A DNA stretch of 64,000 nt from Hypericum androsaemum (Eukaryota; Streptophyta; Magnoliopsida; Malpighiales; Hypericaceae): positions 15,062,671 through 15,126,670 of the forward strand of contig OZ023183.1 of assembly GCA_963995505.1 (NCBI GenBank), in the 5' to 3' direction. A program made the translations under genes and the position numbers. The notes below the pieces were generated by a model. The model was given only the letters and a program-made list of their open reading frames with translations, was not told the origin of the DNA and did no database searches. Of this stretch, positions 3,223 to 64,000 are shown piece after piece (positions within the stretch are counted from its first letter, which is position 1; each line of letters starts with the position of its first letter).

Positions 3223-4248
3223 GGAAAATTATTCTCAAATTTCTCGTATTTGTTTAAATATATACTAAAATTTCTCGTGTTTGAAAAATATTTAATTTTA
3301 TTATACTCATAGATCTCAATCTACTGTCAACAACTTTTTGTTTATTTTTGTCAAAGAAATGACAAAAATACTCTCCACAAGCAAAAAAAAGGAGCAGAGG
3401 AAGACGGTCCCACCGACCAAGACGGTCTCCTCTCTCTCCTTGCCCACCGCCTATTCTCCTTCCTCTCCGGCCTCGTCGCCGACTCGTCCTCCTCATTTGG
3501 CTTCCTCCTTGTTCAAGATCTCCCCTCGCGGCTGGGACGACGAAGGGGAGGAGGTGTAGAGGACCACCGGCCCGCCCTCTAACCTCGTCAACAGATTGGA
3601 ACAATCAGACTCAAAATCCCTCCAACCTCATCGACAGACAACATCGTCTTCTTCGTTCAGCTTCTGTGACCGGGAAGCTTGATTGGATCCAGAAATTCGA
3701 GACCGAGAGCGACCGAAACAAGGGTGCACGGGGACCAGACCGCTCCACCTCACCAAAGCCTCGACTTCGAAATTGGGGATTTTGGAATTTTCCATCTTAG
3801 AAATTAGAAGTTGTTCGACTTGGAAATTAGATAGGAGATTGGGGATTTTGGAATGGGTTCCGATCTTGAAACCCAGAGAAACGAATGGGTCTGAGTTGAT
3901 TTAAGAAATGGGTTTGGGTTGATTTGAAAAATGGGTCATTGTTTTTTCGTTCTTCCGTTGCTTGAGGTATGAATTCCATGGTGTTTGAGTTGTTCTTGAT
4001 TCCATGGTTGTTGGGCCACCGACGAGAAGAGGACAACAGAAAGGAAGGGGATGCTCTCTTTTTTTAAGGATATTTTTGTCGTTTTAATGACAAAACAAAA
4101 AAGAGCTGATGATGTACCCAAGAATATAATAAAATTAAACACGAGAAACTTTTGCATATATTTTTTAAACACGGGGGTTAAATTTTTCAAACACGAGGAA
4201 CTTTAGCGTATAATTAAATAAATACGGTAGACTTGAGAGTAATTTTCC
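3223..4248. mobile_element. Non-autonomous MULE-type element, copy 1
   Basis: The left end (GGAAAATTATTCTCAA) and the right end read backwards (GGAAAATTACTCTCAA) are inverted repeats of more than 100 bp. They contain motifs shared with the copies at 15403 and 19677, such as CTCGTGTTTGAAAAAT and TTTATTATACT. The flanks AAAAATTTG and AAAAGATTT are a poor 9-bp match, so the target duplication is decayed. Inside are a more GC-rich stretch (about 3400-3560) and no transposase. Small open frames inside are not recognisable genes. Confidence 0.7.
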
Positions 4249-14905: not shown

Positions 14906-15402
14906 AGAATTTTTATTTTTTTATTGATAAACTAAATATTTCATAATTAATTTTTACATATTTTCTAAATTATTAACTTTAAATACATCTTGAAGAACCG
15001 ATCACTTGAAACTCGCTTTTTCTTTTTTTAATTGTTTATGTATTTTGAATTTGAAAAGAAGAACTTTCTAATATTTAACTTAAATTATAAAATTTGATGT
15101 TTTGTTATTTTATTGAATGTTGATGTGTAAATATATAAAATATCATGTATTTGTGATCAATTTATATTTTATATATAAAATCAAACTTTTACGTTTAAAA
15201 ATTATAAAAAATATCTTGCATTTAATTCAAGAGTCAGACAACGGACCTCGAATAAGGATATGGATCTAATAGTAGAATTTTTCTAGGATCAAGGATAGAA
15301 TATATGTCCAACACTCTAAACTAAGATATGACTAAGATCCTACATATACCCACTTTACCTGGGGATACTTTAGAGTGTCTATGCATACATTTTTAAATTT
15401 TA

Positions 15403-16452
15403 GGAGAAATTACTCTCAAGTCCCTCGAGTTTGCTTAAATATATTCAAAAGTCCTTCGTGTTTACAAAATACAAGCCGACGTCCCTCCTGTTTGATTTAT
15501 TATACTTTAGGGTCTATGGTTCTTGTCCGCGGACATCATCTCTGCTTCTTCCTCCTAGCTATTGACATCATCTCTGCTTCTTCCTCCTAGCTATTGACAT
15601 CATCTCGTTATGGAAAAAATTTCCAATTCTGTAAGAGCCCTAAAAAATTGATGAACCCTAATCCCAATTGGTGAACTCGGCGTTGCTACAAATTGACCGC
15701 CGATGACTCCTCCTTCGCACTCCCAATTGGCCTCTCTCTCTCTCTCTTTCTCTCTCTCACATTCTTGGGTACGATGTCATCCGATGACGGCGCTCGTGGC
15801 GGTTCTCTCTCAGGTCGTCGAATTGACCAAAGAGGACCTCCATCTAATACATGGACTCCTCTTTAACTCACAGCCAAATTAGGGTTTCCGAGATTAGGGC
15901 TACTCTTTACCTGAGTTCTCCAGATCGCCAGATTGTTTGTCTTTCCACCTCCCCATGTTGCCGATGTTGAAGTCTTGACCCAATTTGTTGTCACTTGCAC
16001 ATTTCAAGAGCTCAAGATCTCGTCTTGGTTGATGGGCTACTATTCTTGCATAGGTCTTAGAGATGTCGCTACCAAATACCGCAACAGCTTGATCTTCAAC
16101 ATTGACCAACCATTCTGAAAATCGTAAAAAAAATCAAATCATGAAAGCGTTTGTTGCATATGCAATCGGCGTTATCCTTTGGGGTCCATGTTATGATCAA
16201 TTGTAGGGAAATTAAAGGTTTTTTCTTGAATTGGCTTGTATGTGTATTCGATTATGATCATATTAAACAATCGGAGGTAGAATAAGAGATAAGGTCAGCT
16301 ATTTTTATGGCAAAAAAAGATAAAAAAAACTTATTTATGGACCCGAAAATATAATAAAATCAAACACGAGAGACGTCGACGTGTATTTTGAAAACAGGAA
16401 AAACTTTTGAATATATTTAAGCAAACTTAAAGGACTTGAGAATAATTTCTCC
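15403..16452. mobile_element. Non-autonomous MULE-type element, copy 2
   Basis: The ends GGAGAAATTACTCTCAAG and, inverted, GGAGAAATTATTCTCAAG define a 1050-bp element. Its flanks are TAAATTTTA (15394-15402) and TACATTTTA (16453-16461), a 9-bp target duplication with one difference, as expected for Mutator-like elements. The inverted repeats of more than 100 bp match copies 1 and 3. The interior holds a 32-bp tandem repeat, a CT-rich tract and one unrecognised minus-strand open frame (15900-16109). There is no transposase. Confidence 0.85.
15532..15606. repeat. 32-bp tandem repeat inside MULE copy 2
   Basis: Two identical units (15532-15563, 15564-15595) beginning GACATCATCTCTGCTTCTTC are followed by a partial third (15596-15606). 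Confidence 0.9.
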
Positions 16453-16856
16453 TACATTTTATGTTGTTGCGTCTTTGTACTTTCTCGTTATGTCTTATAA
16501 TTCTATTGCTTACTGAAACGCCTGTAAGACTATATCCTTAAAAAAATGAAATTATAAACACACTATGTGCATGCTTTGCCATGTGTTAAAACGTGAAGGA
16601 TATTAAGAGCTCTCACACCGGCTCCTCTCGAACTCCATGTTTTTTAGAGTTAATCTCGAACTTCATGTTAAGCTTGCAGAAATGTCCCGATTCATTTTCA
16701 ACTACGTACAGAAATCAAATTACACATAAAACATAGAAATAAGCATCATAATCAATTACATGACACCCATGTTTCACCTCATGAAGGACAGAAATTAAAA
16801 CTGAGACAACAACAAAAGTAATTAGGGTCCAAAAGTGGTTCACTACATCGAATTCT
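16453..16856. other. Spacer and 3' region of the iron transporter-like gene
   Basis: No separate gene is seen. The part nearest 16857 should hold the 3' UTR of the minus-strand gene. Confidence 0.45.
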
Positions 16857-19676: not shown

Positions 19677-20925
19677 AGAAAAATTATTCTCAAGTTCCTC
19701 GAATTTGCTTAAATATACTCAAAAGTTCTTCCTGTTTGAAAAATGATCATGTTGTCCCCTAGTTTGCTTTTATTATACTTTCGGGTCCCTTGCACACGTT
19801 AGCAGCTCTTTTTTTCATTTTTGTTAATGAAATGACCAAAATACTCTTAGAGAAAAAAAAGTCATCTTCTTCTTCTAGATTGCTGATGTCATCATCTTCT
19901 TGTTCCAGTTGCCAGACAAAAACCAAACCCAATCGACTCCTCTAATCAAATCAACACTAAATCTAAATCAAACAAAATTTCCCAAATTAAAATTAAACAA
20001 AATCAACACGAAATAGGAAGGAGTATAAGAAAAAGAGCGAAGAAGAAGAGCGTCAGCCCAAATTAAAATCAAACAAAATCAAACTAATACGAAGACGTCG
20101 AGGAGCAGCAGCAAGAGATCCCCTGCCTCTGTCGAGCACGTGCCGCTCGCCCGCCTCTCTGATGGTAAGATCGAGGCCCTTTCGCCATCCTCCACTCCCT
20201 CGCCTTCCTCCCCCGCGCCGCCCAGCGCTGGCTTCGCCCCCTATCAGCTCGTTCTCTGCCTTGGATCCACCGACCGCCGAGCTCGGCCTTTGACTCATCC
20301 ACGTCGATGCCTCCCGTGCAGATGAGATCGCTGGTGGTGGGTACCCCCTCAGACCTAACCTTGGGGAGGAGCTGAAGGCCAATCTCGAGCCCGCCGACGA
20401 GGTTGATTAGAGGAGAGGGAAGTCCCCATCATGGTCGATTAGAGAAGAGGATAGTCATCATCGGGGTCCATTGGAGGAGAGGGGAGTCGTCGTCGCCGTC
20501 GCCTTTTGATGATTAGGTATGGAGAAACGAGCGGTCCCGAGGAGGAGGGAAGCGACTTCGCAAGAGGAGGCTCACGGAGGACGCTTCTCGTAGGGGGAAT
20601 ATCATCGACCTGTTGCTTCCTGCGGACGAAGGAGGAAGTCGCGTTCCAGGTGTTTGGTGTCTGATGCATTCCATTTGAAGCTTGTTGATGATGATGTCAG
20701 ATTCATTTTTTGTTCACCGGAGAAGAAGAGATGATGTCTGTAATTTTTTTGTTTTTGTTCCAAGGGTATTTTTGTCATTTCAATAACAAAAAAAGAAAAA
20801 AACTTATTTAGGGACCCGAAAGTATAATAAAAGCAAACTAGAGGGACGTAGAAATGTATTTTGTGAACATGAGAGACTTTTGAGTATATTTAATCAAATC
20901 CGAGAGACTTGAGAATAATTTTTCC
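19677..20925. mobile_element. Non-autonomous MULE-type element, copy 3, with GC-rich interior
   Basis: This 1249-bp element is flanked by a perfect 9-bp duplication, TAAAATAAT (19668-19676 and 20926-20934). Its inverted repeats are about 190 bp long and share blocks such as TTTATTATACTTTCGGGTCC and GAAATGAC. The centre (about 20100-20690) is strikingly GC-rich against the AT-rich flanks and contains several overlapping open frames that I do not recognise. This is the look of a Pack-MULE carrying captured gene sequence. No transposase is present. Confidence 0.9.
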
Positions 20926-33893: not shown

Positions 33894-36245
33894 TCACTTG
33901 TGCAAAGCACAAATGCAGTTATCATTCCCTACGTCAGCAGCAATGCAAGGAGGGTGGACATTAGCATCCTGGTACCAAGTCAAGCGCTTCTCAATCAACT
34001 CGTTCAGGAAGTCGTCCAACTTATCAATTGTCACATTGGGCATCACCACCACATGCGCGATGTTTCCTTGACACGCCAGCTGCCACCTGCGAACAAATTC
34101 CTCGTCCAAAGGCCGCTCGAACACAACTGTGCTGCTGAGTTCATTCAGCATCACGCCAATGCCAGCATCGCGGAGGCGGTCCTTCAAGTAATGAGCATTT
34201 CTGAGACACTTCTGAACTTCCTTCTGGAATCCTTTGTATCCTTTTCGGTTGAGTGTATACCAAAGGAATATGGGAGCATGACCGTTGCGACTTCCCATGA
34301 TGGTGGCGTCCCTGGAGGCAAGGTACTCGACGTTTCTTGAGAGAGCATTGATGTGCTCCAGTCTAGTTATCTGAACACCACACGGCATCGGACATCCAAC
34401 AAACTTGTGGCCAGAAACACTCACGCTCCCAATGGGCTTCTTGAAAGATACTTTTGGTGCCTATCATCAAAACAAACAATAAGATTCAGCATGTCAGGGT
34501 CACGCAAAAGAAACACGCATTTACCCGTTTGACAAAAGAAACAACACAAACAATAACTTACCCGTTTGACGAAAGGCATCATGAGTCCAAAGAGAGCACC
34601 ATCACAATGAATGTAGAAACGATCATGGTTAAAGCCACAATCTTCAAGAGTCTTTATTACCAAATCAAGATCATCAACAGCTCCTTTCACGGTCGTGCCA
34701 ATATTCACGTTGATGATTGCTGGTTTGTCCTTGTTGGCAAGCAGCTTTTCTTGAAAGTCGGTACAATCGATCTCACCAGAAATCAGACAATTAACCTTCA
34801 CGCACTCCATTCTATACATACGAGCTGCTTTGAAAACAGAATAGTGTGACTCCCGGGAGGCATACAAAATGCCATCAGGGAACACTTCCCTCCTACATGA
34901 TTAAAAAACGCCAAACATGTCGGTTGTTTCCAAGAATTTGACACGGATGAACACAAACAAGCAAAGGTTCAAAAGCGACTTACCCAACTAATATCCCGTG
35001 GAGGTTACCTTCTGTACCACAGTTGGTGATGTAACCCCAGTAATCATTCTTCTCTATCTCCCACAGACGCGCAAACCAATCCAGAACACCAACTTCAAAC
35101 TGCCTGGAATGGACACCGTAGTTGCTCTCGATGAACGGGTCACCGAGATTGTTGATGGAGAAATGTTGCAACTGCCCCAAAGCGCCATAGTCGAAGTCCA
35201 AGTTATAAGGATAACCTACAACAGCCCATTGACACACCAAAACAAAATGTCAGCTATTATCAACAAACAAATCACATTTTTTGCAAGGAAACACATCTAC
35301 CTCTCTGTACACACAATTCCTAGGATTTTTAATATTCGTATAAATCGGCAAGCATGTTCAATGTTCATAGCAACTTTGATGCAGGGAGAAAGTGGATAGG
35401 CAACCACGAATCAGCTGATTTCGTAAAATATCGGAAATGGGCTGTACTCTCGTCAGTTGATTTCGTAGTCTCATCATTTGATTTCGCAAAATATAGAAAA
35501 CAGGCTATAGTGTCGGTCCGTTGATTCTAATAAAATACTGGAAGGCGACAAAGAATTAGGGAACCTAAATTTTATTTATCAAATTCAATTTCCGAAACAA
35601 TAGAAAAGCTCCTATTTGTAAAGATCTAAAATAAACCTATTGACTTCTAAAAAAAAATCAAAAATAAACCTATCGAAAACAAAACTCACGTGTAGAATCA
35701 TACTAGAGATCAACTCGTAATAATATCCAAAGACTAAAATAATGATTAAATATAATGTTATTCTCTATCTCCATCCATCCATCCATCAAGTTATTCAAAC
35801 TTGCTCTCTCTTTTTCCAATTTACAGTGTGAGAGCACCTGTCGGCACAATCTCTTTCTCCTTTCTACTATGTATTTAGACTTGAGTTGTACCGACTAATT
35901 CAGATTCGATCCGGGAAAATGTATTGCAGATACGATCCGAGTTAAGGTGCATCGTTACAAATAAATACGATCCGTACCTAGGTGGTATTTGGTGCGCTCC
36001 AACAAGGTCTTGCGGTAACGGGCGAGGACGCCGGCCATGTAGGCCTCCATGTCGCCGGTGGAGTCGTCGTTGGCCTCCGGCTCCGTCACCTCCAGGCACG
36101 TGGTGTGCACGTTCCTCCCCAGCACGATCTCCCTCTTCACCGCAACGACCGCGTCCTCCGCCACCTCCGGGGGCAGCGGTTCCGCGTCCTCCAGATCGAA
36201 CCCCTCCTTCCCGTTCACCTGCAACGGCGCCGTTCCAACCTCCAT
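33894..36245 (-). CDS. SDC1: Serine decarboxylase (PLP-dependent, group II)
   Basis: It converts serine to ethanolamine, feeding choline and phospholipid synthesis. Older annotations call such genes histidine decarboxylase. Exons on the minus strand: 36245-35978, 35215-34984, 34892-34562 and 34460-33894, joining to 465 residues in frame. Visible landmarks are the start of the core [15 protein letters not shown] (from about residue 85), [57 protein letters not shown] with the cofactor-contacting Asp, and [11 protein letters not shown], whose Lys (about residue 296) should form the Schiff base. The length is close to the usual ~480. The acidic N-terminus is variable in the family. A clean TATA box lies about 115 bp upstream. 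Intron 3 contains a copy of the exon 3 donor site (see findings). Confidence 0.94.
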
Positions 36246-36369: not shown

Positions 36370-37648
36370 AGAAGGAAGAACAAGGGAGGGGGGCTAAACA
36401 CCACACTTCCAACTTCGTTCCGTCTTTATTATTTAAAGTAAACGTACTATCTGTGCTAATTATTTAAAGTAAATTTAAAGTAAACGTACTATCTGTGCTA
36501 ATTAATCACATATGCATAATTTTCGAATAATGACAAAATAAATTTATCAATTATTTTTTTAATTGCTCGAATTCTGCAACTCCCGACTTCTCCACCTGAA
36601 TATATATGCAATACAGTCTAATTTTTTTCCCAATATTATCGCTATTTATTATTTACAGAAATCACTTATTATTCATTGATTGATTTAAAATAGAACGATA
36701 CAAGTTATTTCTGGCTAAGTATACCTACCGACATATATTAGATATTATCCATTATTTTATATTAACCGATATCAGGATACATGTTGGACTAACTAATGCT
36801 GATTCGAGTTAGGTGCGACTTTTGAAATGTGTTAACAAAATTCCAACCAGTATTTTATCTGTTGCATTCAAAAAAATTCAAACTCAAAACTCAACGTCTT
36901 AATTAAGTTAGAATAAGTGTTCCACTAATTGATTTAAATAGTCGTTGGTTGGTATGTGCCAAAAAGATTTGTGAGACTAAATAAATTGAATGACTAACAT
37001 AAATAGTTAAAGAAAAAACCATTATTGTGGAGTAAGTTGCAAAAAATTAAATATTATATTTCTGCTAAACAGAATGAATTTAATGATGGGGTGCCACAAG
37101 AACATGCTTTTATCAAACCGTTGCCGTTTCAGTTCGGAAAATTCAAGTTGTTAATTAGTTTTAAACGTTATAAAACTCGAATAATTAGAGAAAATATCGC
37201 GGAGAAGACACCAACCATAAAGCATGACTATGTGCCACGTGTATAATATGTATTTGGATTTTTTTTCCTTCTAATTTTTGTGTACACATATTTCTTAGTG
37301 TTAACGTCAAGTGACCGACAGATTTTTTTTAACGACTAATGAGCAGGAAATAAACGTGGAATCTTATTTTTATTGTTAGTCATGTTATGGTGCGTATTAG
37401 ATATAATCTAACAAAATTTCTGTAATTAGATTTAAAAACAATACAATCATTTCCCAGAAAAAATAGAAAAAATTAATTAGCTCGTTTGCATTAATAGATT
37501 AATCACTTCGGTGTTATTAACGGACGAAAATGACGAGAGCGGATTGAGTGGGGACTAAAGAAATATACTCCATAGGTGGGGACAACATTCTTAGCCGTCA
37601 GATTTAATTGGGTGGTCAAATTTGACGATCTGATGGTTAAAAATTAGA
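36370..37648. other. Promoter side spacer and palindrome flank
   Basis: It starts with the far promoter of the serine decarboxylase gene, including a tandem duplication of about 40 bp near 36430-36505 (TATTTAAAGTAAACGTACTATCTGTGCTAATTA appears twice in part). From about 37549 the sequence GGGGACTAAA ... GCCGTCAGATTT ... ATCTGATGGT resembles 26040-26100 and may be the true outer end of the MULE family. It is present only on this side of the palindrome. Confidence 0.45.
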
Positions 37649-38201
37649 GGGGGCATTTTTGACGGGAAAGGATTAGGGGGGGGACAAATATAGTCCCCAA
37701 GTTTGGGGACTAAAGGAGATGGGGTGGCAGACTAGATATTAATAAGCTCTTTAAGAGTAATTTTGGAAAACTACTCTTCACCAAAAACGAGGAATAAAAA
37801 TAAAACAGAAATTCAAAAAAGGCAGAAATAACTACCAATAAACGTGGAGGACTTTTCAACTTCCTGTAAGGAAGGACTCTTTACCTTACCAATATCAATA
37901 TCAAAAACCCTAGCAGCTACTTTATCAATAAACTGAATTCTCTATAACAAAAAATTCATTGGAGGGCTTTGAAAGTTACGGAAAAAAAAGTTGAGCATAT
38001 TATTTTACTATTTTTAGCATTGTACGTAAAGTTGAGCAACCACTTCTCTCCTCTGTTGAAGGTACGTGTATTTTGTTTTTTTGACAAAACCTTCTTCGTC
38101 TTCGATAAACTCTGATTTTTAAGACGGTTAAGATCTGTATTTAATCATGGAGCTCTTCAACGATGATATTGGTTTTACCCTTTATCATTTTTATTTGTTC
38201 C

Positions 38202-40029
38202 TGTAAAATTCGGTATTTAGATATGAGACTTAATAAACTAAGTGATCAAATAAACTCAAATAGTGACTCATTTGTAATTGGCCATCCACTCTTACTTAAC
38301 TACTCCGTAAATTAATCCATTATCGATAACACCGAAGAGAACCTTAAGAGAGAGAGAGAGAGAAATAAAGCCCTATGGTTATTCTTCTAAGTAGAGTAGA
38401 AACGGAAATCCCATGTGGGACTTATTGAGTTATAGCAGAGATGATGAACCACACTTATTTAATGTCGTTGGAATCATCGAGAATGTTATCTCCTTCGACA
38501 TTGCATCCAAAAGTCAAGGGCGATTGTCTTGGTAGTCATGAGAAGTTAAATACGAAAGTAAATAGAGATTTACATGCTTCATTGAGGTAAGTTGTTCTTG
38601 CTTTCAATTCGAGATGCTTTTAGTTTAAATCTGATTTTACATTCGGGTCGAGCAATTAAAAGAATCTATTTTGACGTTCATTGATTGTTATTAAGTGACT
38701 TGTGCGATGATGATTTATTGATTCGAGGGTGTGTTGCTTTTATGGTGTTGCCCTAGTTTTGATTATTAAACTAATTGATTTCAATGTGCGATGAGTTAGT
38801 TATTCTAGGTTCCACTGTGCACTTATTCTTGGTTCTACCGAGCTGGTGGTTTGATTCTGATTCGTACAATTGATTATTGAATTGTTTGGAGATCTAATTA
38901 AACGGATAAGAATAGGGAGATTGAGTACTGGCTATGTGCATGGTATTTTCATGGCTGGATGGATGGAATGATCTTGTTAAATAGTTTGATGACTTGAATT
39001 TCTGCGTACGGATTGCTTTTGTCATGTTCAGGTCATTAATTTATTAATTCAATTGTGCATTGAACCGGTGGTTTTGGATGTTCAGAAGTTTTGGTACTGT
39101 ATTGCACGGCGATCCTGTTCTGCACTGCGGTCTTGTTCTGTATTGAGATTCTGAGTTCATGTTGTGTTCGGTATTATTGTTGGATTGCGAGATTCCGGGA
39201 TTGTGTTCTACATATAGTTCTGTTCCGTGGATTATTTTCTGTCCCGTCTGAATCATGTAGGTCCTAGTGAGGTTATTAATAGGTCTGGACCCCATAACGG
39301 TGGGGGGGTTAATGCACCAGGGGTTAATGCACCAGGACCCTACCATTGGGGGTGATATGATGGTCCCGATAACGGCGAGGGTTACGCGCCAGGACCCTGT
39401 CATTGGGGGTGAAAGAAACAATGACATAGCCTCATTAGGAGGGCTCCGGAGTTCCTGTCTTCATTCATCGTTAGTAACTGCATATATAGTTGTGTCTTGT
39501 CATGGTTGCTCTTTATATCATAATTGTCTCTTTGTTATTCATGAGTAGCGATTGCTTTGTGTTGTCGTGGTTGTTTATTGTATTGTAAAGACTGACATGT
39601 TTGAGGATTAATTGGTTGTGTTCGGTTCGGTGTGTTTACTGTTAAAAGATGATATTTGAACTAAGAATATGGTTTTTTTTTTGAAAATGCTTGGACCTGG
39701 TCTTGGGTTGAAAGTACGGGCAACTTACTGAGTAGCGAAACTCGTCCAAATTCGCAATGTGGTTTTTCAGGAAATATTGAAGATTCTTTGGGTTAAATGT
39801 TGAGGACAATTGTAGTTATTTAATTCGGTTGTACATTCAAAGATTGGTTGAGTTATTTTACACTTGTAAACTTCATATTCAAGATGTAAGTTTCATATTG
39901 TAAATTTTTAAGTCATTTTCAAGTAATAATATTAAGAGACGTGAAAATTTGTAAATGTTTAAAGAAAGTAATATTGAGCCTTGCGCAACTTTATTTGCGC
40001 GGCAGTTGTCCTGGTCTCGGGTCGTGACA
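38202..40029. mobile_element. Solo LTR (probably Ty3/gypsy) inside the left arm
   Basis: This 1828-bp insertion starts TGTAAAATTC, ends CGGGTCGTGACA (TG...CA) and is flanked by GTTCC (38197-38201) and TTTCC (40030-40034), a 5-bp target duplication with one change. The right arm has the uninterrupted site TTTGTTCCCTTTG (in complement, near 46495). That proves it is an insertion into an existing palindrome. The GTCGTGACA end and the repeated GGACCCTxxCATTGGGGGTG motif (about 39290-39415) are typical of long gypsy LTRs. There is no polyprotein, so it is a solo LTR or truncated. Open frames inside are chance. Confidence 0.82.
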
Positions 40030-40189
40030 TTTCCCTTTGTATATTTGGTTTTAAAGTCGGAGTCAACTACAGCTTTATTGAAGGTATGTTTGTCTGATAT
40101 TTTGGTTTGTACCTAATTGTATGTAAGGTATGTTTGTCTTATTTGTTTTAAAATTTTATTTGGTTAACAGCTTTATTGAAATTGATTTT

Positions 40190-41660
40190 CACTTTCAGTG
40201 CTATCAGTTTTCAGATTTATTGATACTGGTTTTATCCCGAAGTGTTATTGCTTTTGAGCTATATTAATATTGACTTTGAGCTTTATTGAGATTGGTTTAC
40301 ACCTAAATTGATTCTGGTTTTGACCTGACTTGATATTGGTTTACAGCTTTATTGATACTGGTTTGTAGGTTAAGTGATATTGGTTTTTAACTGTATAGAT
40401 ATTGATTTTCATCTTTATTAATATTGGTTTGAAGATTTTGTGATATTGGTTTATACCTGCAGTGATATTGGTTTTAGCTTTTTAAATATTAGTTTTCCAT
40501 TTTAACAATAGTGGTTTGTAGCTTCTGTGATATTCGTTTGTAGCCTTTTTGAAATTGTTTAAATAAAAAAGTGATATTGGTTTAAATCTTATTTAGAACG
40601 AAGCATGGATGGAATAATCGATAGTCAAGATTGTCAACATGACGATTGTAATCAACAAACTGGAGGTATAATACCTTAATTGATCCTACTTTTTAGCTTA
40701 ATTATTATTGGTTTGTACGTTTGGTCTTATTGGTTTTGAACATTATTAAAATTAGTTTACAACTTTATTGATACTGGTTTGTAGCTTAAGTGATATTAGT
40801 TTTTAACTGTATAGATGTTGGTTTTCATCTTTATTAATATTGGTTAGAAAATTTTGCGATATTGGTTTATACTTGCAGTGATATTAGTTTTAGCTTTCTA
40901 ATTATTGGTTTTCTACTTTAACAATAGTAGTTTGTAGCTTCTGTGATATTTTTTTAGCCTTATTGAAATTGTTTAAATAAAAAAGTGATATTGGTTTAAA
41001 TCTTATTCAGAACGAAGCATGGATGGAATAATCGATAGTCAAGATTGTCAACAGGACTATTGTAATCAACAAACTGGAGGTATAGTAATTTAATTGATCC
41101 TAGTTTTCAGCTTAATTATTATTAGATTTGTACGTTTGGTCTTATTGGTTTTGAACATTAATAAAATTAGTTTACAACTTTATTAATACTGGTTTGTAGC
41201 TTAAGTGATATTAGTTTTTAACTGTATAGATGTTAGTTTTCATCTTTATTAATATTAGTTTGTACCTTTTGTGATATTGGTTTATACCTGCAGTGATATT
41301 AGTTTTAGCTTTATAATTATTGATTTTCCAATTTAACAATAGTGGTTTGTAGCTTCTGTGATATTCGTTTGTAGCCTTATTGAAATTGTTTAAATAAAAA
41401 AGTGATATTGGTTTAAATCTTATTCAGAACAAAGCATGGATGGAATAATCTATAGTCAAGATTGTCAACAGGACGATTGTAATCAACAAAGTGGAGGTAT
41501 AGTATTTTAATTGATCCTAGTTTTCAGCTTAATTATTATTAGATTTGTACGTTTGATCTTATTTGTTTTGAATATTATTAATATTGGTTTACAGCTTTAT
41601 TGATACTGGTTTGTAGTTTAAGTGATATTGGTTTTAAACTGTATAGATGTTGGTTTTCAT
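40190..41660 (+). repeat. ~415-bp tandem triplication containing the transposase first exon
   Basis: The exon start ATGGATGGAATAATC occurs at 40605, 41019 and 41436 (spacing 414 and 417), each followed by GACTGTAATCAACAAA-like sequence and the donor GGAG|GTAT. Each encodes MDGIIDSQDCQ...NQQTG. The sequence between is built of degenerate 22-24 bp units of the type AGTGATATTGGTTTxxA. The right arm mirrors this with minus-strand starts at 45100, 45516 and 45930. Confidence 0.88.
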
Positions 41661-43244
41661 TAATTGATATTGGTTTGCAAGAATTTATCTCGGTTTTTAT
41701 GTGCCTGTCAAGTTGCCGATGTTATACAACGAACTGCAACGGACTGTGCAGAGGAAATGGAGTCAATTGAGGATATGGAGGAAAAGGAACGGTGGGAAAA
41801 AATAGAATTTCAATCAGTGGAAGAGGTGCATGATTTTTACTATAGTTATGCACACAGAAAAGGATTCAGTGTGCGAAAAGATTATCATAAAAAGGGGAAA
41901 GTGAATGGTGAAAAGACTAAGGAGATATACTACATCAGATTACTTTGCAACAATGAGGGTCTTCGTAAGCAGTCTGATGAACCTAAACGGAAAAATGGTC
42001 GATCATATAAACGACTTGAGGAAAGAACAGATTGTGAAGCTATGATCATCATCAACTATTCACCGAAAATGTCAGTTTATTTCATAAAGGAATGGAGTGT
42101 ACATCATAACCATACTCTAATCCCCAGTCAGTTCACTTATATGTTAAGATCCAACTGAAAGATGAATTCAATTCAAGAACAAATTGCAAAAATGCATAAT
42201 GAAGCTGGCATTAAGAACAGATTTTCCTACGAGGTAATGGCAATGGCTGCTGGAGGTGTGAAAAATCTTGGTTTCCTCCCAATAGATTTGAAGAACCATT
42301 TGGGCACACAACGGCAACGGACGATGAAATTGGGTGAAGCGACAGCATTGCAAAAATATTTCAGATCTGAGGTATATAAGAATCTATCCTTTTTTTATGA
42401 GATTGAAGTTGATAGTGACGAACAGATAGCAAATATATTCTAGGCTGACAATAGGATGCGGATGGACTACAAGCTCTTCGGCGATGTAATTGCATTTGAC
42501 ACAACTTACAGAATAAATAAGGATTACCGTCCATTAGGTATACTTCGAATCTAATTCTTACTATTAGTTTGACAATGTTTTGGTATGTGGACTTATTATT
42601 GTTATTTTGGTTCTGCAGCTCTATTTGTAGGTTTCAATCACCATCGCATGATTTGCATTTTTGGAGCAGCTCTCATGTACGACGAGATAGCTGAATCCTT
42701 TCAATGGCTGTTCCGAACATTTCTTGATTGCATGGATAACAAGGCCTCAATGACCATATTCACAGACCAAGCCAACGCCATCGGTAAGGCATTGGGCTTG
42801 GAACTTAAAGGTACATACCATGCTTTATGTACCTGGCACATACTAGAAAATGCGAAGAAAAGACTTAGTCAGCTATTCACAAACGAAGTGTCTCAAGCAT
42901 TCAAAAATCTGATATATAATGTTGACGATGAAGAAGAATTTGAGTTTTACTGGAATAAGATGATAGAAGATTGTTTCCAACCAGGAGGACACATATGGTT
43001 GAAATATATATATGATTACCGAACACAATGGTCATCAGCATGGGTTAAGAAATATTTTACTGCTGGTATGGTAACGACACAACTTGTCGAATCTTGCAAT
43101 AGTAATGTACGAGGGTACTTGCAATCCGACTACAACCTCATTGAGTTCTTCACCCATTTTAACAGCTTTGTTAATGGTAGAAGGCATGCAGAGAGGGAGG
43201 CAGATTTCGATGCCATGAATAAGTTGTCATATCCGTACTGTTGA
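40605..43244 (+). pseudogene. Truncated FAR1/MULE transposase, left-arm copy
   Basis: After the repeated first exons, an exon from about 41713 (acceptor CTGTCAAG) encodes a FAR1-type DNA-binding domain (FQSVEEVHDFYYSYAHRKGFSVRKDY ... CEAMI ... WSVHHNHTL). A MULE transposase core follows with VIAFDTTYRIN (first Asp), MTIFTDQANAIGKALG (second Asp) and LCTWHILENAKK. The frame is broken by TGA at about 42156-42158 (Arg in the other copy), by TAG after IANIF near 42441, and by an intron-like interruption at 42540-42618. The C-terminal SWIM zinc finger is absent because the gene stops at the palindrome centre. Confidence 0.85.
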
Positions 43245-43285
43245 ATCTGCCTCCCTCTGCTGACGTAACCAATGAGCTGGTACTG
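43222..43285. other. Spacer (hairpin loop) of the palindrome
   Basis: These 64 bp lie between the last base pairs of the arms. They contain GAATCTGCCTCCCTCTGC, a third partial copy of the sequence that ends the arms. This suggests that template switching or end joining created the inverted duplication here. Confidence 0.75.
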
Positions 43286-43490
43286 TATTCATGGCATCAA
43301 AATCTGCCTCCCTCTCTGCATGCCTTCTACCATTAACAAAGCTGTTAAAATGGGTGAAGAATTCAATGAGGTTGTAGTCGGATTGCAAGTACCCTCGTAC
43401 ATTACTGTTGCAAGATTCGACAAGTTGTGTCGTTACCATACCAGCAGTAAAATATTTCTTAACCCATGCTGATGACCATTGTATTCGGTA

Positions 43491-43549
<59 letters not shown>

Positions 43550-45930
43550 CAACCATATGTGTCCTCCTAGTTGGAAACAATCTTCTATCATCTTATTCCA
43601 GTAAAACTCAAATTCTTCTTCATCGTCAACATTATATATCAGATTTTTGAATGCTTGAGACACTTCATTTGTGAATAGCTGACTAAGTTTTTTCTTCGCA
43701 TTTTCTAGTATGTGCCAGGTACATAAAGCATAGTATGTACCTTTAAGTTCCAAGCCCAATGCCTTACCGATGACGTTGGCTTAGTCTGTGAATATAGTCA
43801 TTGGGGCCTTGTTATCTATGAAATCAAGGAATGTTTGGAATATCCATTGAAAGGATTCAGCTGTCTCGTCGTACATGAGAGCTGCTCAAAAAATGCAAAT
43901 CATGCGATGGTGATTGAAACCTACAAATAGAGCTCCAGAACCAAAATAACAATAATAAGTTCACATACCAAAACATTATCAAACCAATAGTAAGAATTAG
44001 ATTCGAAGTATACCTAATGGACGGTAATCCTTATTTGTTCTGTAAGTTGTGTCAAATATAATTACATCGCCGAAGAGCTTGTAGTCCATCCGCATCATAT
44101 ATTTGCTATCTGTTCGTCACTATCAACTTCAATCTCATAAAAAAAGGATGGATTCTTATATGCCTCAGATCTGAAATATTTTGGCAATGCTGTCGCTTCA
44201 CCCAATTTCATCGTCCGTTGCCGTTGTGTGCCCAAATAGTTCTTCAAATCTATTGGGAGAAAACTAAGATTTTCCACACCTCCAGCAGCCATTGCCATTA
44301 CCTCGTAGGAAAATATGTTCTTAATGCCAGCTTCATTATGCATTTTTGCAATTTGTTCTTGAATTGGATTCATCTTTCGGTTGGATCTTAACATATAAGT
44401 GAACTGACTTGAGATTAGAGGATGGTTATGATGTACACTTCATTCCTTTATAAAATAAACTGACCTTTTTGGTGAATAGTGGATGATGATCATTGCTTCA
44501 CAATCTGTTCTTTCCTCAAGTCGTTTATATGATCGACTATTTTTCCGTTTAGGTTCATCAGACTGCTTACGAAGACCCTCCTTGTTGCAAAGTAATCTGA
44601 TGTAGTATATCTCCTTAGTCTTTTCACCATTCACTTTCCCCTTTTTATGGTAATCTTTCCGCACACTGAATCATTTTCTGTGTGCATAACCATAGTAAAA
44701 ATCATGCACCTCTTCCACTGATTGAAATTCTATTTTTTCCCACCGTTCCTTTTCCTCCTTATCCTCAACTGTCTCCATTTCCTCTGCACAGTCTGTTGCA
44801 GTTCGTTGTATAACATCGGCAACTTGACAGGCACATAAAAACCGAGATTAATTCTTGCAAACCAATATCAATTAATGAAAACCAACATCTATACAATTTA
44901 AAATTAATACCACTTAAACTACAAACCAGTATCAATAAAGCTGTAAACTAATATTAATAATATTCAAAATCAATAAGACCAAACGTACAAATCTAATAAT
45001 AATTAAGCTGAAAACTAGGATCAATTAAAATACTATACCTCCACTTTGTTGATTACAATCGTCCTGTTGACAATCTTGACTATAGATTATTCCATCCATG
45101 CTTCGTTCTGAATAAGATTTAAACCAATATCACTTGTTTATTTAAACAATTTCAATGAGGCTACAAACGAATATCACAGAAGCTACAAACCACTATTGTT
45201 AAAGTGGAAAATCAATAATTATAAAGCTAAAACCAATATCACTGCAGGTATAAACCAATATCACAAAATGTACAAACCAATATTAATAAAGATGCAAACC
45301 AACATCTATACAGTTAAAAACTAATATCACTTAAGCTATAAACCAGTATCAATAAAGCTGTAAACCAATTTTATTAATGTTCAAAATCAATAAGACCAAA
45401 CGTACAAATCTAATAATAATTAAGCTGAAAACAAGGATCAATTAAATTACTATACCTCCAATTTGTTGATTACAATCGTCCTGTTGACAATCTTGACTAT
45501 CGATTATTCCATCCATGCTTCGTTCTGAATAAGATTTAAACCAATATCATTTTTTTATTTAAACAATTTCAATAAGGCTAAAAAAATATCACAGAAGCTA
45601 CAAACCACTATTGTTAAAGTAGAAAACTAATAATTAGAAAGCTAAAACCAATATCACTGCAGGTATAAACCAATATCACAAAATCTTCAAACCAATATTA
45701 ATAAAGATGAAAACCAACATCTATACAATTAAAAACCAATATCACTTAAGCTACAAACCAGTATCAATAAAACTGTAAACCAATTTTAATAATGTTCAAA
45801 GCCAATAAGACCAAACGTACAAACCAATAATAATTAAGCTGAAAACTATGATTAATTAAGGTATTATACCTCCAGTTTGTTGATTACAATCGTCATGTTA
45901 ACAATCTTGACTATCGATTATTCCATCCAT
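43286..45930 (-). pseudogene. Truncated FAR1/MULE transposase, right-arm copy
   Basis: This is the mirror copy on the minus strand: FAR1 domain pieces at 44440-44850, MLRSNRKMNPIQEQIAK... at 44095-44394, and the transposase core with the same FTD / LCTWHILENAK region at 43433-43880. It keeps the Arg codon that is a stop in the left arm. It has lost about 14 nt after IANI near 44096, carries other stops, and has a long AT repeat at 43494-43547. The truncation point matches the left arm. It is not a functional gene. Confidence 0.85.
43494..43547. repeat. (AT)27 microsatellite, right arm only
   Basis: 54 bp of alternating A and T. The left arm has only AATATATATATG at the mirror site (about 43000-43012), so the expansion happened after the duplication. 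Confidence 0.95.
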
Positions 45931-47045
45931 GCTTCGTTCTAAATAAGATTTAAACCAATATCACTTTTTTATTTAAACAATTTCAAAAAGGCTACAAACG
46001 AATATCACAGAAGCTACAAACCACTATTGTTAAAGTGGAAAACCAATATTTAAAAAGCTAAAACCAATATCACTGCAGGTATAAACCAATATCACAAAAT
46101 CTTCAAACCAATATTAATAAAGATGAAAACCAACATCTATACAGTTAAAAACCAATATCACTTAACCTACAAACCAGTATCAATAAAGCTGTAAACCAAT
46201 ATCAAGTCAGGTCAAAACCAGAATCAATTCAGATGTAAACCAATCTCAATAAAGCTCAAAGTCAATATTAATATAGCTCAAAAGCAATAACACTTCGGGA
46301 TAAAACCAGTATCAATAAATCTGAAAACTAATAGCACTAAAAGTGAAAACCAATTTCAATAAAGCTGTTAACCAAATAAAGCTTTAAAACAAATAAGACA
46401 AACGTACCTTACATACAGTTAGGTACAAACCAAAATATTAGACAAACATACCTTCAATAAAGCTGTAGTTGACTCCGACTTTAAAACAAATATACAAAGG
46501 GAACAAATAAAAACGATAAAGGGTAAAACCAATATCATCGTTGAAGAGCTCCATGATTAAATACAGATCTTAACCGTCTTAAAAATCGGAGTTTATCGAA
46601 GACGAAGAAGGTTTTGTCAAAAAATAAAATACACGTACCTTCAACAGAGGAGAGAAGTGGCTGCTCAACTTTACGTACAATGCTAAAAATAGTAGAATAA
46701 TATGCTCAACTTTTTTTTCAGTAACTTTCAAAGCCCTCGAATGAATTTTTTGTTATAGAGAATTCAGTTTATTGATAAAGTGGCTGCTAGGGTTTTTGAT
46801 ATTGATATTGGTAAGGTAAAGAGTCCTTCCTTACAGAAAGTTGAAAAGTCCTCCACGTTTATTGATAGTTATTTCTACCTTTTTTGAATTTCTGTTTTAT
46901 TTTTATTCCTCATTTATGGTGAAGAGTAGTTTTCCAAAATTAGTCTTAAAGAGCTTATTAATATCTAACCTGTCACCCCATTTCGTTTAGTCCCAAACTT
47001 GGAGACTATCTTTTTCCCCGCTAATCCTTTCCCGAAAATGACGGT

Positions 47046-47863: not shown

Positions 47864-50800
47864 TTACGAGGTTTCCCTCATCGACTGCAGCTGCGAGAAG
47901 GATATCCGTATTATTGATCCAGCTAGTGTGGTTGCATGTTTGGAGACGAGGGCTTCAGTGGCCTCCTCCTCAGTTTCAAATAGAACGTGGGCCTGCTTCT
48001 TGCCATTCATCTCGAAAAGTTTGGTGTTGGCAATGGTGCCATGTTCCTCTAGATGCTGAACTATTTCCTCTTCTGTTATGTCATGCGGTAGAGAAGAAAT
48101 GTGGATCATCTTTGTAGGTGAGCAGCAGTACCGGTAGTTCTTTGCAGCATTGCGGTTGAATCGATTGAGATTTGAGTTCGTATACTCGTGTGTGTCAGCA
48201 CCTTGAGTTATGTTCGGATACTTTGAAAAATTCACTTCCAGCCGCTTTCCAAACAGTATAGCTCCCTGATCCACACATTATAAGATATATTAGTAACTGT
48301 TGTGGCTTCTTTTTTCCCAAAGACAGAACAAATAGCTCTCCAAAGCAAATTTGCATGGCTTAAGACTTGATTGTTGGGTTCAAAAAATCAAATTATGGAA
48401 AAATATTTAATGATTGAGCCACATTCAAAATGCCAAGAGAAAAACACAAGGAAGCCAAGAAGAAAATTAGCCTTCCCACATAGAACATACAAGACAAGAC
48501 GATCAGTATCAAGCAGTTAGCAAACATGCATGACCCAAGACCAAAAGTTCGAAGTAAAACCAATTATCAATCACTCCATCGGTTAGTTTCTAGAAGAAAT
48601 AGCGATGATCGCATTGACACCCGCAGCTCAACTATCGTTCCTGAATTGATATTGGAATCAACTTTTAAGAAGCAGCAGACAACATAGCAGCGTCACCACA
48701 CACTCTTCTGGTTCCAGTAGCCATTATCGTGTCCTAAGAGAAGCTAATCTTAAACTAACCTTGAGAAAATGCACCGCTAACTCAGCTTGAAACCCATCTG
48801 CCAACTGAATGAGTGCATGATCAGGTTTGTTGTGAAGAAGCTTGATTCTCACAATGTTTCCATAGAGGGAAAATAGGTTGAAAAGTTTATCTTCATCTAC
48901 TCTCTGATACACAATTTTATGCATTAATATAAGAGGATAGGATTTACAAACACATTAAATCCAAAAGTACCACAGGGATTGCAGTTCACTAACATCAGGA
49001 TTCAAGTTGGAGGCCAAGACTGTACACCTCTCGTTTGTCCCAGTAACCCCAGGAGGCAAGCCTCCACTGAAAGCAGCAGCTATTGCAGCAGCATTGGCCA
49101 TCTAGCATCCCAGAATCATAACAAAACATATCAATTACATGCCCCAGTCAGATCGAATCACAAAAGGCATGACCATTCAGGAACGACTACAAGGAACCGA
49201 TGGTCATCGGTTGATGATGCCAAGGCAGCCATCTGTGAGGCATGCTTTGGCAGCAAAAAAAAAACAGCTGAGAGGAATTCAATACCAGAAGAAAAAGGGC
49301 AACCAAACAGAATAGCAAGAAATTTCAAAAAATAGAAACACAAAACCAATGATAGGCGTAGCTATATTTAGCACCCTTTCTACAGACACATATCACTACA
49401 CAACAAGTATAAAAAGCACAAGACATTGGATATTCCTGAAGAACTAGGTACAATACAAAGTACTTCAATTTCCATTTTCTGAAGAATGGCAAAACGACAA
49501 CAAAGCAGCATCAGTAGACATCTAGTTTTTTATCCAACCTTTGAGCTCCCACTTGAAACAATGTCATGCCTGACTCCAACAATAATTCAAAGGAGTTCAG
49601 TTATACCCTTCAATTACACAAACACAGGTGCTATGAGTTACTTCTTAGCAATAAGCTAGAGCGAAAGTTGACAGCACAAGCAACTATAACCAGTTAGTAC
49701 CTGAGCAGCCATGGGACAACAACCAGTAAACGTACCAAAAGGTCAGGCCAACAATGCTAGTCGTGCAGATGGTAATATAATACATATTACGCAGGATAAA
49801 GAGCACAAATTACATATTTCCAGGAACACCCACCTGTGGATAAGCAACTGCAACATAGAAAACCAAAAAAAAAAAAGAGGATCACCATATGCTCAGAAAT
49901 TTCATGAATACCAGAAATGGATGCCAACATCTAATCCCATTGGGTTTATAACAGTATAAAAGAGATACATACCTCCTACATCTCCATATGGAGTCTGTTT
50001 TGCCACAGAAGAGGGAAAAAAATCAATATAACTGGATTAGAATTTGATATTACCAGCTGAATAACTAAGAAGGCAAATGAACACAGAAGAAAAGAAGGAA
50101 ATGAAACTAACATGCGAAGATCTGCCTTTCTGCTCAGATGGCAGATTAGGGTTAGTAAAATCCCTGCAAGAACAACAAATCTGATGCTTAACAACAGCAT
50201 TGGAAAGATCATTAGGCCATGTAAAAGTTATGGATTGTTCACAGACCTTGATCTGTCATTATTGTAGTTCACTTGCAACTCATCCAAGCTAGATCATGCA
50301 CATGAAGTTTAGAACAATTCAGTGTAAAAGTGTCAGAAATCAATCTTAATAAAAAGAGAACACATTTTCCAAAACTGCATACATTGGGAAACGTTCTCAA
50401 ATGACTAGTCCAAATGACTGCAAATAGATAAAGACAACGTAAGCACAGCAGACACTAGATAGTACCCACTTTGAGAATTGAATATCAAGCTGACAGCAAC
50501 CATCATAAATATTGCGTCCCTGAAAACCAACAAAGAAATTCCCTTCAGAAATCAAGCATAACTGACACATTCAACAATCAACAAATCCAGAAGATGGACT
50601 TGTAGAATCATGGGATACCTGCAGAGATGTCCGGGCTGAAACTGCATTCTGTCTTGATTGGTACTGTATAAGGGCCTGGAATCCTGAGATAATAAAAAAA
50701 ATATCGCGAAAAGAAGAAGGTTCAGAAAATTACAGTTGTATACACATTTCTGCTCAAAGCAGATCATTCTGTAAAGGTAGCGAGAAGAAGATATAGAGAG

Positions 50801-53800
50801 AGTAATTATTCGAGAGCCACAATTTGGTAGCAAGACAAGCAAACAGATCCAGGATGTACATCCCATATCACAAAAGGAATGCCATATCTAACCCAAGAGA
50901 CTCAAATTTCAGACACAGAAAGAGGAGAAGACTTCAAGAAGCTGACCAGCTGACTTCTGAAATGTGACGATCTTCTCAACATATCCATAGGGAGAAAAAA
51001 CTTGGTGCAGCACTTCCACTGTTATAGGATATAGCATGTGATGGACTGTAACTAATAGAATTCGATTTGGCTGTGCATCCCGAGTGTCGAACAGCAGACC
51101 AGCATAGACAGAAGAGAGAGAAGAGAATAAATAGAGAAGTAAAGGTAGCGAGAAGAAGATATAGAGAGAGTAATTATTGCACAGTAAAATGTAAAAGGCA
51201 GACAAGAGATTAATCCTTGGACAATAAACAAACAAGAAGAGGAAAAGATACACCGAAAGCAATCACCATAGAAAAAACATGATCAACGTAGAAAAGCATA
51301 AAACATCAAAATTATGTCATTGTGTACTTTATCTATTGCACATCGTATTTTTCCTTCATCGAAACATTTCAATCCTAGTAAGACAAGAGGCAAGATACTG
51401 AAAACAAGAACCATATGACAAACAAAGATGAGAAGACTAGGTTCTCTTCAATCCATTGTAGCAATAACAAAATTATAGCAGCAGGAGTACTATCATACGC
51501 GATTTTTTTCTTTTTTGGGTAGAAAATTTATCGATACTCCCTAAATGGGCAGTTTAAAAAAAAAAAAATAATAGGAGAGGCGACCTACCCCCGGGAGGCT
51601 GCCACGTGGCTGCCACGTGGCGCACCCAGGTGCAGTTTTTTTATTTTTTTAAAATTTTCGGACAGCGATAGGTTAGTGCTCGGGTGTCATAATTGACATT
51701 CTTTTTATTTCGCAAAACTTTTCGAGCTCATTGCGTAAGGCTCGAAAAGTTGTGTGCAATTAAAAAAATTCCTCCTTCAAACACCCGAGCACCAACTTAT
51801 AGCCTTTCAAAGATTTTGAAATTTTTTTATAAAATAAACACACACAGGTGGAGGCTAGCAGACTCCACTTTTTTAAATTTTTTTGAAAATTTTTTTTGGG
51901 CAATAAGTTGTTACTCGGATATTCGAATGACATTTTTTTAATTTCGAAAAACTTTTCAAGTTCTACAAATTCACTTAGGATAGGTGTAAAAGATAATAAG
52001 TGCAAAGAAGGTAATAGAAAGATGAGGAAGTCGAATGCTAGCATCTTAGTAGAAGCACCCAAAAAGGTTAGGGCTGGTTAGGCAGAACCGAATTATTACT
52101 GTGGTCTGAAAATGGAGGAGCACAAGAGGTTAGTTAGTATTACAGTGCCAGTAGCGAATCTTGATACATATTATACTAGAAGAAGAAAAATATGATTCCC
52201 ATAATTGAGCATCCCGTGTGCCTGAAGCTACAGCAGGTTTGACAATTTTAAGGTGAAAAAGATATTGGCTCAATGTCAAAGAAAAGGATAGGCAGTCCAG
52301 CCAACATTCCACAACAAATGTCAAAAGGCTCAAGGTAGAACAAAATTGTGCAAGGTTTTGGTCCCTTTACAAGTGAAATGGTTGGCAGGTTAACGTAATA
52401 GAATCTTAGCCGATTCCAGTATTTTGGAGTCAGTCTGATCTGGTTTTCTCAGTTTCGATAGCAATAGTAATTGGGTGATAATATGCTAAACAATAATTAA
52501 AGATTTTCCCATGTTGTCAATAGCGCGCTATAGCGGCGCTATGTAGCGTTTTGGGCACCCACCGCTATGATATGCTGCTGTTAAACGCTATAGATCTCAT
52601 ATAAGTAAGAATTTCGTATAAATTAGTATAAGCACAAGTTTAATGGTAATGAGGTTTGTGACTACATTTCTACCAACATTTTGAGACATGGATTGCCTAG
52701 GAGGTTAGACTACAATTAACTTATAGCTTCAAATTGATATAGTCTGTGGGAATCCTGGTTTATTCTTGTTGTGCCAGATGAGACAATAAGCTTTCGAGGC
52801 CAAAAAAGTTGCTTGATCTGAACCAAAACGCGGACCTTCCCTCTCAACTCAAGAGTTCTACAATAATGCTCAAAAGCACTAACCTCATCGCCTCGCCCTT
52901 GAGCATTTTGTTCCATTGTTGTAAGCTCTTGATGCGATGAGAATTGGATATAAACATTCCTTCCCCTAACAGAACCAGAAAACAACAAAGGTAATGGAGC
53001 AGTTGAAGCTAAATAGAACTTAAATAACATAAGAAGGGTTACTCCCATAACTCAAGGATCGAGCACAGAGAGAATCGTTACCATTACTATGTATCCAAAA
53101 AATTGATGACATAAGGGTCATCATTATGATGTATCCCAAAAATCGATGACATAAACTAACTGAATATACCATATAGTTTGGCTGTTCAGAAAAGTAAGTA
53201 TACCTTATAGTTGGTTGAAGATTTGTGTAAAATTGCAGAGCACTGATGGCCGATGAAACATCTTGCATCTGAAGCAGAGCCTGTACTCATCATAAAAGAA
53301 AATTGGCGTCTTTAGAAATTTGTAGCAGTCAGGTATAAAAAAAGAGCAGGCACATATATGATTTTATGCGAAGAGACACCTGATTTTTTGCGCGAAGCAT
53401 AACAAGCTTTGTAATGACACCAAAAGGCTGGAATAGCTGCAGCAAATCATTCTGCATATAAAAGCATCCAAAGCATGAGAAAAATACAAGAGTACTGCTC
53501 AAGATAATGGCGACGTTATTATATGCTTTGAATTAGAGTCTTGAAATGGGTTCTTGAGGCTAAAAAAAATCTTATGGGTTCCAGTACTTCTTGAAAGGCA
53601 CTGTTTTTAAGACAAAAGTAAAGAAGTGCAAGCACTAAAATCCATTCAAAGAAAGAATAAGAGGGCAGGACCTAGAGTTTTTCAGTGGCACATATTTTCA
53701 AAGGTAACCAAGTCGATCATGTAACAGCTAGAGGAACCATCTAAAAAACTTGATTTTTGAAGCTCATTTTAGGTTGGCAACGGATTAGAAAGGAAGACCT

Positions 53801-63059: not shown

Positions 63060-64000
63060 TTAAAAGAGGTGGTGGTGCTTCTTTCCATGAGCCTCCTCAT
63101 CTTCTTCCCTGGCCTCCTTCCTCTCATGTTTCTCATGGAACGCGTAACCACCGGAACCGACCGCCGCGGCCGCGGCGATCTCCTCCTCAATCTTGTGCCT
63201 GTGGGCGTGCTCTGGGTCCTTCTTAGACTCATGCTTCTCATACTACGTACAATAACAAGGAGGAGAAAAGTCGATACTTGAATTGGTTGATCCATCGTTC
63301 AGCATATCACAAAAATTTACTAATCCATTTTCGAACACGAAAGCTAACTTATTTAGCCATATTCAAATTCACGAAGTTATTTAAGAGACTGTAACTCCTA
63401 GCCACTTACTAAATTCAAAATCTTTGTCAATAAATAAAAAAATCACCGATCTTGGTGGGTAAGATTTAATGAACATTTTACCCTTGAGCCGAAATGATGT
63501 ATAAGTTTGTTCGTTTGGTGCATATTTAATTAATTTATGTTTGCTTCGGCGAAATGTGATTACGAACATTATAATATAATTATTTACTATTTAAGTAATT
63601 TATTTTTGAATAAATAAAATTTTATTTGTTAAAAAAAATATTTACCAAAGCATAAGCACCGGCAGCCGCAGCACCGAACTCTCCGACACGCTCACGATTT
63701 TTGTGCTGCTTCTCCTCCCTCTCATAGTCGGGCTCCGGTGGACGTTCGGAGTAGGACTCCTGCGGGGGAGCGCCGTATCCACCGGAGTAGGACTCCGGCC
63801 GGGGAGCGCCGTATCCACCGGAGTAAGACTCCTGCGGAGGAGCGCCGTACCCGCCGGAGTAAGACTCCTGCGGAGGAGCGCCGTACCCGCCGGAGTAAGA
63901 CTCCTGCTGAGGAGCGCCGTACCCGCCGGAGTAGGAATCCGGCGGGGGAGCGCCGTATCCACCGGTCTGGGAGTACTCTGTCGTCTCACCGTAGATGGTC
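63060..64000 (-). CDS. ASR: ASR protein with tandem [12 protein letters not shown] repeats (5' end outside window)
   Basis: Exon 2 (63242-63060) encodes [20 protein letters not shown] through a normal [10 protein letters not shown] end. Exon 1 (from beyond 64000 to 63646) encodes a Tyr/Gly/Pro-rich stretch, then [20 protein letters not shown] and GAYAL, where the family intron falls (402 bp here). Before the ASR domain come six consecutive 12-residue units of the type [12 protein letters not shown] (63963-63748), coded by a 36-bp tandem repeat. The start codon lies past the window end, so at least 178 residues are present. The normal C-terminus and clean frame suggest a working gene. It is paired with the ASR gene 5.7 kb away on the same strand. 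Confidence 0.9.
63748..63963 (-). repeat. 36-bp coding tandem repeat, six units
   Basis: Six in-frame units coding GGYGAPP(Q/P)(E/D)SYS. Units 3 and 4 are nearly identical and the outer ones carry changes such as APQQ and APRP. The unit is a multiple of three, so copy-number changes keep the frame. Confidence 0.92.

Follow-up and report, generated by a model that had tools for sequence, protein, structure and literature searches.

Whether a transposase gene carried twice in inverted orientation is a natural hairpin silencer, equivalent to Mu killer of maize and of independent origin, or the product of an aborted transposition is the question raised by a locus in a 64,000-nucleotide stretch of the Hypericum androsaemum genome (contig OZ023183.1, positions 15,062,671 to 15,126,670). 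This stretch is referred to here as the window, and all coordinates are counted from its first base. The 9.5 kb locus is the mirror image of the first half of a FAR1-clade Mutator-like element (MULE), composed of the element's own sequence. It is best read as a well-resolved derivative of the Mu killer (Muk) type, perhaps a source of small RNAs, and not as a proven silencer. Taken as a whole, the explanation developed below, which combines an origin by rearrangement, the potential for hairpin transcripts, and a passive small-RNA role, is likely to be right.

The mobile element occupies positions 37535–47033 in minus orientation and starts about 115 bp to the left of position 37650, the start given in the initial annotation. 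It is bounded by a 9-bp target site duplication of the MULE type (9–11 bp), GAAAATGAC, at 37526–37534 on the left and 47034–47042 on the right (plus strand). This 9-mer occurs twice on the plus strand and once on the minus strand of the 64 kb, with 1.14 occurrences expected by chance, and it counts as a target duplication by its location beside both family termini, not by its rarity. The left end of the element is formed by the 3′ terminal inverted repeat (TIR) of the family (37535–37663, minus strand), which was recognized by its matches in other copies and is the sole remnant of the original element's 3′ end, and the right end is formed by the 5′ TIR. The outer piece of the left, inverted arm (37664–38201, plus strand) begins at the exact terminus of the family 5′ TIR, and the inner piece (40030–43226, plus strand) contains a 22-bp minisatellite, a 417-bp triplication, and the 5′ part of the transposase gene, and ends in AATAAGTTG. 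The two pieces are separated by an 1828-bp insert (38202–40029, unstranded) that has TG...CA ends, resembles a solo long terminal repeat (LTR), and is absent from the right arm. The right arm (43254–47033, minus strand) is the element's original 5′ half, and its outer end is the 5′ TIR terminus.

The two inverted arms with a short spacer that had been described are present: 37664–43221 without the insert aligns with 43286–47033, and the arms converge at 43221–43286. Because of the insert, the left arm physically extends over 5.56 kb. The gap between the arms is short, yet the simple 64-bp spacer was replaced after comparison with family copies, as it is partly arm sequence. Only 43227–43253 (unstranded) belongs to neither arm, and a 19-bp deletion in the right arm adjoins 43286.

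The arm centre has matches at 40 or more places in the genome (385 Mb in 29 contigs), at least 39 of them besides the window, and these copy counts are lower bounds. At each of the 39 other places both arms match one spot, and these copies are therefore single, not palindromic. Twenty of the 39, chosen by identity to the arm centre, were fetched and read. Their gene parts are 93–96% identical to the left arm in 15 cases, 89–90% in four, and 86% in one, so that relatives above 90% identity, whose existence the initial annotation had left as a question, are present. The seven elements with both ends placed are 10.4–12.4 kb long (four of them 11.7–11.9 kb). Perfect 9-bp duplications flank L021 and L011, two of the three other copies tested; in the third, L016, none was found. 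Three of the 20 copies are free of stop codons within their tblastn matches, frameshifts between matches lying outside this count. Ten copies (L010, L012–L015, L018–L020, L022, and L026) match the left arm at 93–95% identity over the gene but are 35–38% different in the first ~690 bp, mainly past about the first 340 bp, as if their 5′ region had been replaced.

Comparison with the family resolves the junctions. In eight of the 20 copies, the match to the end of the left arm begins at window base 37664, which therefore fixes the 5′ TIR terminus at this base. The 129 bp at 37535–37663 have matches of 85–95% at the far 3′ ends of nine of the 20, in the correct orientation and 7–10 kb beyond the arm-centre match; the TIRs of the locus are thus common to a family. 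At the left junction, the 129 bp of 3′ TIR run straight into the first base of the inverted 5′ TIR, at a point where all seven other copies shown carry on with 3′ sequence. A tandem duplicated TIR at the left end was considered and ruled out, 37535–37663 being the family 3′ TIR. At the centre, the left gene extends as far as AAGTTG (43226) and the right gene to 43254, and the filler consists of pieces joined at overlaps of 3–5 bp. Two pieces, 43224–43237 (14 bp) and 43234–43246 (13 bp), match the family 3′ region, and a third, 43244–43258 (15 bp), matches the gene in inverted orientation, a match reached by none of 500 shuffles in a test that covered this piece and not the 14- and 13-bp pieces. 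The centre is patched as template-switch repair would leave it. Short templated foldback insertions at breaks in yeast are described in PMC11724301.

The transposase halves are convergent, tail to tail, with their 5′ ends pointing outward; the head-to-head arrangement proposed in the initial annotation is wrong, both genes being read toward the centre. The left fragment (41757–43226, plus strand) has an exon at 41757–42537, an intron at 42538–42618, and a second exon from 42619, with limits deduced from the frame and from GT/AG, and carries two stop codons. The right fragment (43254–44778, minus strand) carries four stop codons and a 16-bp deletion, and no lesion is common to both. Pfam detected the MULE transposase domain (PF10551, 2.2e-16) and the FAR1 domain (PF03101, 1.9e-16) in the left-arm frames and gave no match among the three right-arm frames scanned; the right arm holds the left-arm transposase sequence in decayed form. 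The common truncation before the SWIM finger was correctly recognized: the break falls at fragment residue 461, which corresponds to residue 487 in a 797-aa relative, and the SWIM finger of that relative (residues 592–617) is beyond this point. Upstream, three tandem units reading MDGII.SQDCQ.. followed by GT (40605–41500, plus strand; starts at 40605, 41019, and 41436) are putative mini-exons, mirrored in the right arm at 45099, 45516, and 45930 (minus strand). The 417-bp unit that carries this frame is present three times per arm, within the 22-bp minisatellite, and BLAST suggests fewer units in L021.

With the insert removed, the arms are identical at 3557 of 3704 aligned positions (96.0%), a Kimura two-parameter (K2P) distance of 0.041. 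The 147 substitutions comprise 107 transitions and 40 transversions. The arms also differ by the 16-bp deletion, by 44 bp in the length of an AT repeat, and by the insert, which only one of them carries. The AT repeat has 27 units in the right-arm gene (43494–43547) and is a short run in the left arm. The insert is flanked by GTTCC and TTTCC, a 5-bp duplication with one mismatch, and a Pfam scan of it found no domain; since it is missing from the right arm and has such ends and flanks, it looks like a later solo LTR. The differences between the arms are spread evenly over codon positions (19, 15, and 17 in 454 each), and both transposase halves seem to have decayed from one open frame under little or no constraint. 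At plant substitution rates of 7 × 10^-9 to 1.3 × 10^-8 per site per year, the K2P distance corresponds, very roughly, to 1.6–2.9 million years, barring a reset by gene conversion. Strongly unequal arm ages, at which BLAST identities had hinted, were rejected after alignment (21 vs. 34 changes, p 0.10).

The junctions are read directly from the DNA, and the repair process and order of events that follow are proposed from them. A MULE of the FAR1 clade, from a family whose elements measure 10–12 kb, would have inserted in minus orientation, creating the 9-bp duplication, and would have lost its 3′ half in a failed transposition or gap repair. The lost half would have been replaced by the inverted 5′ half of the element itself or of a near-identical sibling, this inverted copy being joined at its exact 5′ TIR terminus to the 129 bp of 3′ TIR that remained, and the centre may have been closed through template switching among the element's own pieces. 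An aborted transposition product, the other option raised in the initial annotation, fits the junctions well as an origin. Copying within one element, or from its sister chromatid, is preferred over the participation of two elements because the inner ends of the arms lie within 46 bp of each other in the gene.

The alternative that survives best is a possible, though not the favoured, origin from two elements, in which a sibling element landed in the 3′ TIR of the first at 37663 and a near-symmetric central deletion followed. Insertion would simply explain why the left arm begins exactly at the transposon terminus, siblings less than 1% apart in the gene are present in the genome, and nested MULE insertions are the topic of PMC3903597. 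The gene part alone also fails to group the arms, the left arm standing beside L021 with a support of 56. However, two elements would require deletion points that nearly coincide in the gene (46 bp apart), and would also need the arms to be closer to each other than to any other copy in the 5′ region. Over the initial ~690 bp, the two arms differ by 4.1%, compared with 8.6% for the nearest other copy; trees of 17 rows each group the arms with a bootstrap of 97% for the 5′ region and of 99% once the gene is included, and two gene sites are common to both arms against all 15 close copies.

Apart from its origin, the locus has the structure of a potential hairpin. RNA folding of the central 491 bases gave −399 kcal/mol, compared with a shuffle mean of −118 and with none of 100 shuffles as low, and perfectly matched 21-mers between the arms start at 1609 of 3750 alignment positions. 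On the right, a gene with RRM domains (47864–51100, minus strand, upper limit approximate), which we take to be polypyrimidine-tract-binding-like, is transcribed toward the palindrome, with its stop codon 0.8 kb away. On the left, a serine decarboxylase gene (33897–36245, minus strand, limits by eye) is transcribed away from it, with its start codon 1.3 kb from the element; its product is 86–89% identical to those of Salix, Mercurialis, and Manihot, and 92% identical over 92% of the length to that of Ziziphus. Because the gene's 3′ end is gone, a transcript started in either TIR, or reading through from the RRM gene, would continue into antisense sequence; it could fold back on itself as a ~3.7-kb stem, a possible substrate for Dicer-like enzymes. 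The likeliest role of the locus, if it acts at all, would be that of a passive source of small RNAs directed chiefly at itself, without lasting control of the family, a proposition that is evenly poised. That the locus is instead an inert fold-back relic, never transcribed, is rather doubtful: the stop codons, the even divergence over codon positions, and the LTR-like insert in one arm would suit such a relic, but its position, with genes on both sides at 0.8 and 1.3 kb, speaks against it.

An active equivalent of Mu killer, in which hairpin RNA from the palindrome yields small RNAs that act in trans to silence FAR1/MULE relatives, is unlikely. The architecture is that of Mu killer, a flanking gene is transcribed toward the palindrome, and potential target elements exist at the 39 other places, each of the 20 fetched copies having 138 to 1531 21-mers identical to an arm. 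The independent Mu killer equivalent suggested in the initial annotation is thus matched in architecture, but the arms are 4% diverged and carry stop codons, members of the family were amplified after the arms formed, and the arms have no excess of methylation-type mutations. Among the 20 fetched copies and the arms, the set in which neighbours were sought, seven copies (L010, L014, L015, L018, L019, L022, and L026) have a neighbour at 0.4–1.1% divergence in the gene. Active copies may have a slowly evolving gene; with the 5′ region and gene taken together, three of these seven young copies differ by 0.7–2.0%, and L014 and L015 differ by 1.8% downstream. All of these values (0.4–2.0%) are below the divergence between the arms, about 3.8–4%, and part of the family therefore multiplied after the arms formed, which weighs against a lasting family-wide silencer.

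As for methylation-type decay, seven of the arms' 24 private C-to-T changes fall at CG/CHG sites, compared with 29.5% of sites. Given this lack of enrichment, nothing points to exceptionally heavy methylation of the arms over the long term. Such changes are enriched in the other 15 close copies (41 of 96, p 0.007). This conclusion is based on the polarised test. An unpolarised test between the arms found no excess (odds ratio 1.24, p 0.31) and was set aside as uninformative, nine overlapping pairs of other window repeats giving none either (1.20, p 0.42).

The distribution of 5′ types is compatible with a more specific form of silencing. Compared with the arms, the first ~690 bp are 35–38% different in the seven young copies and 9–19% different in L021, L011, and L016, the start of the last being a guess; the fetched stretch of L009 contains close 5′ sequence, the end of which lies outside. 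None of these four copies, whose 5′ region is of the same type as in the arms (L009, L011, L016, and L021), has a neighbour closer than 2.5%, whereas seven of the ten with a divergent 5′ region have a young neighbour (Fisher p 0.07, in a small sample and noticed after the fact). L012, L013, and L020, which also have a divergent 5′ region, are likewise without a neighbour below 2%. Such a pattern would be expected from a silencer aimed at its own promoter type, and also from mere age structure. It is compatible with a second silencer of the Mu killer kind, formed independently in a different MULE clade and plant lineage, that shut off the elements matching it in the 5′ region; a subfamily whose 5′ region had been replaced would have escaped and continued to amplify. 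This scenario is quite improbable. Finally, the palindrome is real, and an assembly or sequencing artefact, although false palindromes are a known class and the initial annotation had raised one, is practically negligible, contradicted as it is by the separate decay of the arms (147 substitutions, separate indels, and an insert in one arm), their differing outer ends, and the perfect 9-bp duplication.

Besides the ungrouped arms in the gene part, several observations weigh against the favoured explanation. The pN/pS ratio between the arms, 0.63 from 14 synonymous changes and 37 others, is not clearly different from 1 (p 0.15). In nine fetched loci no target duplications were found within stretches that did not reach their 3′ ends. 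The arms and the other copies do not differ significantly in methylation-type decay (p 0.25), and the nearest neighbours of L009, L011, L016, and L021, arms included, are 2.5–4.9% away, as a silencer would also predict.

Other repeats are present elsewhere in the window. A 36-bp tandem repeat of six copies at 91% lies at 63747–63965; its unit reads, by eye, as 11 residues on the minus strand without a stop and is possibly part of a repeat-rich coding exon. Related inverted and direct repeats of ~110–190 bp, 80–86% identical and similar to miniature inverted-repeat transposable elements, are found at 15394–15517, 16337–16461, 19678–19860, and 20752–20924. Rfam gave no match at the gathering score in the window.

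Several known systems resemble the locus in part. Fold-back elements have long inverted arms and a short loop, as has the locus; their arms are typically made of repeats, whereas those of the locus are the 5′ halves of a coding MULE family. MULE derivatives with internal deletions from abortive gap repair have lost internal sequence, kept their target site duplication, and acquired filler at the join. The locus has done the same, but its lost half has been replaced by the inverted other half. MULEs with tandem TIRs, as described in PMC3310237, share with the locus two successive TIRs at one end; in the locus, the left pair is made up of a 3′ TIR and then a 5′ TIR, rather than two copies of a single kind of TIR, and is a by-product of rearrangement.

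The closest likeness is to Mu killer itself. According to PMC3440606, both TIRs of Mu killer derive from the transposase side of the element, two incomplete transposase copies terminate in an inverted duplication, the middle of the element is missing, genes lie on either side, read-through is proposed, and the centre resisted sequencing; PMC8224964 reports that the hairpin yields 21–22 nt RNAs. Among the titles and abstracts listed, with most subscription journals outside the search, no second Mu killer-like MULE locus was recognized and no paper joining Mu killer with FAR1 was found. Like Mu killer, the Hypericum locus has an inverted duplication of the transposase 5′ part, both arms begin at the transposase-side TIR, genes flank it on both sides, and the remainder of the element is gone. 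It differs in belonging to the FAR1 clade in a eudicot, whereas Muk derived from MuDR, in having arms of 3.7 kb rather than the ~1.3 kb of mudrA on each side in Muk, and in retaining a 3′ TIR outside the left arm. Its centre is readable and its arms are 4% diverged. Every junction of a Mu killer-type locus can thus be read beside full-length relatives from its own genome, and the origin of such inverted duplications becomes visible, probably as template switching among an element's own pieces that starts from an exact transposon end. If small RNAs do arise from this locus, it would demonstrate a repeated origin of Mu killer-like silencers, and the idea of escape by promoter change would become testable.

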